DNA of 64,000 nt from Salegentibacter sp. Its GTDB lineage: Bacteria > Bacteroidota > Bacteroidia > Flavobacteriales > Flavobacteriaceae. The DNA is taken from contig JAGXIH010000003.1 in the NCBI GenBank assembly GCA_024635795.1, positions 62,001 to 126,000 of the forward strand. Reading direction: 5' to 3'. Within the stretch, counting starts at the first letter, position 1. Each line of letters opens with the position of its first letter. A program made the translations under genes and the position numbers. This document shows positions 48 through 2,100 of the stretch, piece by piece. A model generated the notes under the pieces. It worked only from the letters and a program-made list of their open reading frames with translations. It did not search any database and was not told where the DNA came from.

Positions 48-83
48 AAAAAAATCCCCCTGGTTTCGCTATTACCAGGGGGA
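48..83 (-). terminator. Intrinsic terminator / attenuator following Met/Cys-rich leader peptide 2
   Basis: Minus strand TCCCCCTGGT-aatagcgaa-ACCAGGGGGA followed by T-run; 10 bp stem. Confidence 0.85.
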
Positions 84-110
84 CTTGAATTGAACTCTAA
101 ATAAACTAAG

Positions 111-203
111 TTACATTCGCTTCTGGCAATAGCATTTCATGTGCATACACATCATCATAATGGGCATTATCATTTTTTTTGCTATTGACAGGTTGTTACT
201 CAT
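111..203 (-). CDS. Putative Met/Cys-rich leader peptide MSNNLSIAKKMIMPIMMMCMHMKCYCQKRM (30 aa)
   Basis: Direct translation of minus strand 203->111; 9 Met and 3 Cys codons; located just upstream of a terminator hairpin with an alternative antiterminator pairing. Confidence 0.75.
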   Translation of the reverse strand: MSNNLSIAKKMIMPIMMMCMHMKCYCQKRM

Positions 204-349: not shown

Positions 350-380
350 AAAAAAAGCCGCTACGGTGGCAGCGGCTTTT
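350..380 (-). terminator. Intrinsic terminator / attenuator following Met-rich leader peptide 1
   Basis: Minus strand AAAAGCCGCT-gccaccgt-AGCGGCTTTTTTT; 10 bp stem plus T-run. Confidence 0.85.
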
Positions 381-398
381 GCAAATATCTTTTCAGTT

Positions 399-449
399 TT
401 ATGCAATAGTGCGCGCTGCGGAGGCTTTCCACATCATCATACGCATCAT
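399..449 (-). CDS. Putative Met-rich leader peptide MMRMMMWKASAARTIA (16 aa)
   Basis: Direct translation of minus strand 449->399; 5 Met codons in the first 6; immediately upstream of the 350-380 terminator. Confidence 0.7.
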   Translation of the reverse strand: MMRMMMWKASAARTIA

Positions 450-489
450 ATTGCAAATAAACTTGTACATTTCGTTGTTTTGTTGGCTA

Positions 490-497
490 CAAAGATA
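490..497 (-). promoter_or_regulatory. Candidate Bacteroidota -7 box (TATCTTTG) for the leader transcript
   Basis: Minus-strand TATCTTTG matches TAnnTTTG; TTG (519-521) about 21 bp upstream; leader 1 starts ~40 nt downstream. Confidence 0.5.
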
Positions 498-699: not shown

Positions 700-717
700 T
701 CACCGTATAATTTAAAG

Positions 718-815
718 GGAAGGATTTGACTGATTGCAACCCTATATGCACTTAGGTGTATTGAAAAATGCTAAAGCAGTAATACTACTCCTGTTAGCAC
801 CACGTCAAATTCCGC
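718..815 (+). ncRNA. Candidate SAM-I/SAM-IV-clan riboswitch in the metK 5' UTR
   Basis: Closing stem GGATTTGAC (722-730)/GTCAAATTCC (804-813); GCAACC (736-741) and TGCTAAAGC (769-777) resemble the S-box core; internal hairpin ATGCAC/GTGTAT; lies between promoter box and metK start. Confidence 0.6.
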
Positions 816-843: not shown

Positions 844-2100
844 ATGGCTTATTTATTTACTTCTGAAAGCGTTTCTGAAGGACACCCCGATAAGATCGCC
901 GACCAGATAAGCGATACCCTACTCGATAATTTTCTTGCTTTTGACGAAAACTCAAAAGTTGCCTGCGAAACCCTGGTAACAACCGGACAGGTTGTTCTTG
1001 CCGGTGAAGTTCGCAGTGATACTTACCTGGATGTGCAAACCATAGCACGGGATGTGATCAATGATATAGGGTATACTAAAGGTGCCTATAAATTCAGCGG
1101 GGATTCCTGTGGCGTAATCTCGCTTATTCACGAACAGTCCCAGGAGATCAATCAGGGAGTGGATCGCGGAAATAAAGAAGAGCAAGGCGCCGGCGATCAG
1201 GGAATGATGTTCGGTTATGCAACTAGCGAAACCCAAAACTATATGCCTCTCGCCTTAGATATTTCTCATAAGATTCTTATCGAGCTGGCAAAAATAAGAC
1301 GGGAGGAAAAAGAAATAACTTACCTCCGCCCCGATTCTAAAAGCCAGGTAACCATAGAATACAACGACGAAAATATTCCGCAGAAAATAGTGGCCATTGT
1401 AGTATCTACCCAGCACGACGAGTTCGATGAAAATGATGATAAGATGCTAGCCCAAATTAAAAAGGACATTCTCGAGATCCTTATCCCAAGGGTAAAAGAA
1501 CAGCTCCCTGAATATGTTCAAAAATTATTTAATAATGATATCACCTATCACATCAACCCTACCGGAAAGTTCGTTATCGGTGGGCCACACGGTGATGCCG
1601 GATTAACCGGGAGAAAGATCATCGTAGATACTTACGGAGGGAAAGGCGCTCATGGGGGCGGTGCTTTTTCTGGAAAAGACCCAAGTAAGGTTGACAGATC
1701 GGCTGCCTATGCTGCAAGACATATTGCCAAAAATTTAGTCGCTGCAGGAGTGGCCGATGAAATTCTGGTACAGGTTTCTTATGCCATTGGTGTGGTTGAA
1801 CCAACATCCATCTTTGTTGATACCTACGGGACTTCCAAAGTTGATCTCAAAAATGGAGAGATAGCAAAAAAAGTAAGAGAAATCTTCGATATGCGCCCTG
1901 CAGCCATTGAGGAACGTCTGAAGCTGCGCAACCCAATCTACCGCGAAACAGCTGCTTACGGGCATATGGGAAAAGAACCGAGAATATTAACCAAGGTATT
2001 TGAAAGCCCGTATAATGGCAGGATCACGAAAGAAGTGGAGCTGTTCACCTGGGAGAAACTGGATTATGTAGATAAAGTAAAAGAAGCTTTCGGACTTTAA
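844..2100 (+). CDS. metK: S-adenosylmethionine synthetase
   Basis: Characteristic MetK sequence ([47 protein letters not shown]). Confidence 0.98.

Follow-up and report, generated by a model that had tools for sequence, protein, structure and literature searches.

Two candidate methionine-codon attenuators in series in the leader of the metY operon of Salegentibacter

Leader-peptide attenuation is a classical mechanism of transcriptional control. The proteobacterial attenuators of the trp, his, thr, leu, ilv and pheA operons combine an open reading frame (ORF) of cognate codons, alternative 1:2, 2:3 and 3:4 helices and an intrinsic terminator ahead of a biosynthetic operon. Control of methionine biosynthesis in bacteria is usually ascribed to SAM riboswitches, T-boxes or repressors. 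Tandem attenuators are represented by mgtM and mgtP of Salmonella, which lie with their two leader ORFs in one leader mRNA, respond to ATP and proline, and precede the Mg2+ transport and virulence operon mgtCBR (PMC3641672). For Flavobacterium psychrophilum, a member of the same family as the organism considered here, strong indications that leader peptides attenuate amino-acid operons have been presented in a main text that names no methionine operon or structures (PMC9723704). Met or Cys genes preceded by leader peptides that contain the respective codons are also on record: the metL leader before metNIQ of Streptomyces lividans is a Met-leader candidate with no typical terminator reported (PMC8079986), and the mycobacterial Cys leaders have no conserved hairpins (PMC1262725). 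Our literature search for methionine leader-peptide attenuators returned only the metL candidate. It has also been documented that a gene can trade one sensing system for another (PMC2965389).

The window analysed here, C11:62001-126000, is a stretch of 64,000 nucleotides from a Salegentibacter assembly of 62% completeness. At its left edge the minus strand carries a leader that is very probably, judging from its sequence, a pair of ribosome-mediated transcription attenuators placed in series before the metY operon. The genes that it would control are beyond the edge of the window. The start of metY is at C11:61959, 42 nt to the left of window base 1, and its product is closest among named proteins to MetY of S. 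sediminis (94%). The cluster runs metY, metX, hom (homoserine dehydrogenase), an Rrf2-type regulator, cysH, cysD, cysN and an OsmC-like gene, with names assigned by reading the sequences rather than by family models; the gene order suggests co-transcription. The role of this operon is homocysteine synthesis and sulfate assimilation, so that metY, metX, hom, cysH, cysD and cysN make the amino acid that would be sensed. The Rrf2/CymR-like gene within the metY-cys cluster (L009:7828-8262) suggests a second, protein-based sulfur control.

Measured against the proteobacterial paradigms, the locus differs in its codons (Met, and Met plus Cys), in its host phylum, Bacteroidota, and in having two complete attenuators in series. 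Its antiterminator also takes the apical stem and loop of the terminator, not the whole 5' arm. The mgtCBR leader shares the doubled layout; here the codons are those of Met and Met plus Cys, and the operon is the amino acids' own biosynthetic one. The SAM-I riboswitch (RF00162) occupies the same operon position at metY of other Flavobacteriaceae, presumably for the same purpose; its aptamer senses SAM directly, whereas the present leaders would sense charged tRNA through the translating ribosome. No tandem Met / Met plus Cys attenuator and no exchange with SAM-I at metY was described in the literature that we searched, many subscription papers lying outside it. The mechanism is of a known kind; what looks new is its tandem form and its exchange with SAM-I within a single operon. 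A conserved, structurally complete and doubled Met/Cys attenuator would add a type of sensor both to the methionine pathway and to the Bacteroidota, in which RNA regulation is poorly mapped.

The riboswitches of relatives and neighbours raise the question of whether SAM-I, SAM-II or a T-box acts in this leader as well, to which we give almost no credence. Relatives carry SAM-I at the same place and the adjoining metK has a SAM-II riboswitch, but a covariance-model search of the window against Rfam gave no match in the metY leader, nor did metY of the leader-type relatives tested. The sole match in the window was the SAM-II element itself (57.6 bits; gathering threshold 44). One intergenic region therefore holds two types of RNA sensor facing in divergent directions, SAM-II for metK and the putative attenuators for metY. 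The neighbouring features are as follows.

710 to 784, plus strand: SAM-II riboswitch, directly upstream of metK
844 to 2100, plus strand: metK, the divergent neighbour of the leader

Since metK diverges, the minus strand upstream of the leader holds no gene, and both terminators can stop only the metY operon's own leader. The second attenuator, nearest to metY, comprises these elements.

111 to 203, minus strand: leader ORF 2, MSNNLSIAKKMIMPIMMMCMHMKCYCQKRM, a Met run plus Cys, conserved in six genera
181 to 191, minus strand: segment A, CUGUCAAUAGC, which pairs with B as a putative anti-antiterminator or pause hairpin
123 to 133, minus strand: segment B, GCUAUUGCCAG, partner of A or C
87 to 119 (approximate bounds), minus strand: noncoding spacer with a weak hairpin, TTAGTTTRTTTAGAGTTCAATT, from the leader-2 stop to the terminator, between B and C
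68 to 78, minus strand: segment C, CUGGUAAUAGC, antiterminator with B, or paired in part with the terminator 3' arm
48 to 86, minus strand: intrinsic terminator 2, with 5' arm 86-74, loop 73-65, 3' arm 64-52 and a U-tract

Terminator 2 (-22.4 kcal/mol, z -5.65) sits between leader ORF 2 and the first gene. When the leader is folded as untranslated RNA, the minimum free energy (MFE) structure (z -5.2) has, beside this terminator, the A:B helix, which had not been part of the original prediction. Duplex energies are -18.7 kcal/mol for B:C and -14.4 for A:B. As predicted from the sequence, the A:B, B:C and C:D helices are the full 1:2, 2:3 and 3:4 layout of a trp-type attenuator. The spacer probably brings B and C together. 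It is kept strongly within the genus, more so than a weak hairpin needs, is replaced by other hairpins in Flavobacterium, and may possibly serve as a pause site.

The original prediction was an 11-bp pairing, with one G-U, between minus-strand 133-123 (GCTATTGCCAG) and 78-68 (CTGGTAATAGC), and both coordinates and pairing proved exact. It had placed B just after the Met/Cys codons of the leader ORF; B is indeed inside the ORF, but the last two Cys codons (134-132 and 128-126) overlap it. It had also described C as including the 5' arm and loop of the terminator. An apical overlap exists, amounting to only 5 nt (78-74) of the 13-nt arm (86-74) together with 6 of the 9 loop nucleotides (73-68). 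Exclusion of one structure by the other would for this reason be kinetic or steric, and the proposed mutual exclusivity is upheld in that the antiterminator is conserved and covaries, while with so partial an overlap of the arm the exclusion may be less than full. In other Salegentibacter, C overlaps only the top two stem pairs of the terminator plus the loop. The basal terminator stem and B:C could coexist as a pseudoknot, which folding tools cannot score. This partial overlap is the main mechanistic doubt.

Folding calculations bear on the same point. At equilibrium the complete terminator (-22.4) beats B:C. When the transcript is folded stepwise, starting at B and lengthening at its 3' end, the MFE structure is B:C (-20.0) before the 3' arm emerges, and the terminator (-22.6 to -27.9) takes over once about 6 nt of that arm have been transcribed. 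This modelled order is the kind of kinetic competition that an attenuator should show. When RNA upstream of 98 is masked, as by a ribosome at the stop codon, only the terminator forms. The pairing was neither unconserved nor too weak to compete, the two outcomes that had been named as counting against it.

That plain terminators stand behind chance Met-rich ORFs, with accidental complementarity, is very improbable. B is similar to the 3' arm of the terminator (CCAG), which gives some complementarity to C for free, and 44 of 2000 synonymous recodings of the leader ORF reach the observed B:C score, so that the complementarity partly follows from the peptide. In 2000 dinucleotide shuffles, however, the ORF never reaches it (mean best score 5.2), there is no upstream gene to terminate, and leaders and pairings persist across genera with compensatory changes. 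Conservation across genera is stronger evidence than the shuffles. Both attenuators are found in Salegentibacter, Christiangramia, Gillisia, Mesonia, Salinimicrobium and Flavobacterium. Conservation of the leaders, antiterminators and terminators thus extends to at least six genera, and the antiterminator pairings covary, which bears out the prediction of an attenuator rather than a plain terminator after a chance small ORF.

In 46 leader-2 sequences from the six genera, B and C are complementary over 7-12 of 13 positions. Among the changes that preserve pairing are CAG/CUG to CAA/UUG inside Salegentibacter, CCG/CGG in a single Gillisia, and the variants ACUAUUGCC/GGUAAUAGU and GUUAUUGCC/GGUGAUAAC of the Mesonia group. 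The B:C covariation score is 0.192 against 0.159 +/- 0.011 (0/500 shuffles reach it; slid registers give at most 0.095), a test with few cells whose shuffles are inflated by related sequences. B is highly conserved, and swapping B and C between species changes little: cognate combinations average 9.44 pairs and non-cognate ones 9.33. Terminator 2 has double-sided compensatory changes in 6 of its 14 consensus pairs across genera. A helix of the A:B type, the competing 1:2 hairpin, exceeds 95% of shuffles in 32 of 45 loci and is weak or absent in others, for example some Christiangramia and Gillisia; it is the least secure element. For these comparisons L025 was excluded, its species being represented by L034.

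An exact-pattern search for extra copies within the genus found at most one per genome, with a pattern that misses 6 of 15 genomes. A leader-2 covariance model run on 200 other genomes of the family, under strict filters that lose weak matches, matched in 12 genera outside Salegentibacter. Six of eight such loci inspected precede metY with Met/Cys leaders. Of the other two, L124 has a different gene downstream and L126 looks like chance.

The upstream half of the transcript contains the probable promoter and the first attenuator.

490 to 497, minus strand: Bacteroidota-type -7 element, TATCTTTG, with TTGG at 521-518 as -33 element
399 to 470, minus strand: leader ORF 1, MYKFICNMMRMMMWKASAARTIA, with five internal Met codons and one Cys, conserved in six genera
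414 to 419, minus strand: segment B1 (GCAGCG) of antiterminator 1, pairing with 374-369
369 to 374, minus strand: segment C1 (CGCUGC), common to antiterminator 1 and terminator 1
406-402 with 383-379, minus strand: inner helix of antiterminator 1, UUGCA with UGCAA
about 350 to 380, minus strand: intrinsic terminator 1, AAAAGCCGCUGCCACCGUAGCGGCUUUUUUU

Like leader 2, leader 1 is a short 5' ORF with a run of codons for the pathway product. An equivalent of the antiterminator 1 fold is present in every locus folded, although locus L014 escaped the search pattern. Its compensatory changes convert GCAGCG:CGCUGC to GCAGAG:CUCUGC in Flavobacterium and to ACAGCG:CGCUGU in Mesonia, and its covariation score is 0.177 against 0.061 +/- 0.024 for shuffled pairs, a value that none of 500 shuffles and no slid register reaches, subject to the same limits of cell number and relatedness as for leader 2. 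The -7 and -33 elements are the probable single promoter of the leader transcript. Nearly all loci of Salegentibacter, Gillisia, Christiangramia, Mesonia and Salinimicrobium have TAnnTTTG 26-28 nt ahead of the ATG of leader 1, and the Flavobacterium loci lack it at this position; between leader 1 and leader 2 the exact motif is absent in all loci but one. As it is found essentially only before leader 1, both attenuators probably act in series on one RNA.

The general mechanism that we propose can be set out in steps. (i) A single transcript would start at about 485-480 and present leader 1 and terminator 1 first, then leader 2 and terminator 2. (ii) When Met-tRNA is plentiful, the ribosome would reach the leader stop codon and cover B, so that C is left to pair with the 3' arm of the terminator and RNA polymerase halts. 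(iii) When Met-tRNA is short, the ribosome would stall in the run between A and B, with A masked or cut off; in leader 2, a shortage of Cys-tRNA at the first Cys codon (149-147) would also stall it. (iv) With the ribosome so stalled, B would capture C as C emerges, the terminator would nucleate too late and transcription would continue. (v) If the leader is untranslated, A:B would form and C would be free, leading to termination. (vi) With the terminators in series, full expression would need read-through at both, so that a lack of Met would be the main signal opening the operon and a lack of Cys would add its effect at leader 2. The ORFs, alternative helices, terminators, conservation, covariation and gene cluster are read from the DNA, and from them we infer translation, stalling, kinetics and the AND-like logic. 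Methionine is also the initiator amino acid, and its severe loss would lower initiation as well, which counts against the model.

We are less sure of the Cys response than of the Met response, because the two Cys codons inside B lie where stalling would cause termination. A variant of the same attenuator in which only Met-tRNA (or general translation speed) is sensed and the Cys codons are non-regulatory therefore deserves some weight, though we consider it rather unlikely. It would fit the varying number of Cys codons upstream of B (0 to 4 per leader 2). Against it, 44 of the 46 leader-2 sequences retain at least one such codon, and the cluster contains cysH, cysD and cysN.

A second alternative takes the small ORFs as functional Met/Cys-rich proteins, for example metal-binding ones, with RNA structures that only end transcripts. 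Peptides rich in Met, Cys and His, MMMRTMMMCMCMQHMKCYCQNRM among them, do resemble copper ligands, and the peptide ends (CYCQN, SAA) are conserved. These ends, however, are what the B segments encode, and both the codons used there and the changes in them track the RNA partner: Cys is encoded by TGC in 64 of 72 cases within B and by TGT in 90 of 109 cases in the regulatory run (Fisher p 1e-22, phylogenetic kinship ignored), so that within B the choice of codon follows the pairing of the RNA. The runs vary in length and composition, and the ORFs are linked to metY and exchanged with SAM-I. We accordingly hold such a protein function to be quite improbable and prefer attenuation.

The exchange was examined in a set of 81 MetY rows, made up of 80 named loci and the window. 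Two rows, cut off at contig ends, were unclassified; the 79 classifiable loci divide into 42 with leaders and 37 with SAM-I, and none has both. SAM-I was confirmed by Rfam for the loci tested and called from a core-sequence pattern for the others. On a quick, unrooted MetY tree one change between leader and SAM-I suffices (support 93). This clean split between SAM and charged tRNA on one orthologous operon, with its single change, makes module exchange testable in culturable strains.

Other families present further arrangements. Upstream of metY in other families of Bacteroidia (L140, L142, L143, L146 and L139), a SAM-I aptamer comes before a short ORF that has many Cys codons or finishes with them, as in ...PCCMCICCPCC*, ...STCCCCCC* and MRMCCWCPCCC*, possibly a SAM-I-gated Cys leader. 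A comparable Cys-rich ORF was found at none of 28 other SAM-I loci, mostly before metH. Met/Cys leaders with terminators also precede metY homologues in L141 (tandem, ...MMMCCCMPINRPEQLYHIA) and L131 (MSETEGKQLIMMMSLSMMMWMQSVYMKV), from other families, so that this type of attenuator would be older or recurrent. With both SAM-I plus Cys ORF and Met leaders found in other families, either state may be ancestral and the exchange may have run in either direction. On a tentative view, on which we are nearly evenly divided, the metY regulatory slot evolves by swapping whole sensor modules: SAM-I; a tandem Met then Met plus Cys attenuator, acting as a serial AND gate for two charged tRNAs; or, in other families of Bacteroidia, a hybrid made of a SAM-I aptamer set immediately ahead of a Cys-rich leader ORF, the translation of which it may gate.

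At metH, which lies downstream of this metY cluster, Salegentibacter retains SAM-I. In the sister genomes G003 and G011, SAM-I and metH follow the OsmC gene (L009:4063-4485 and downstream). In the source genome, with its assembly 62% complete, unrelated genes follow OsmC and no SAM-I was found there. REP-like palindromes of the TTCCCGCGAAGGCGGGAA and TTTCCGTGAAGACGGAAA types flank leader 2 on both sides (10-33, 219-242 and also about 262-340), and similar copies occur at other places in the genome.
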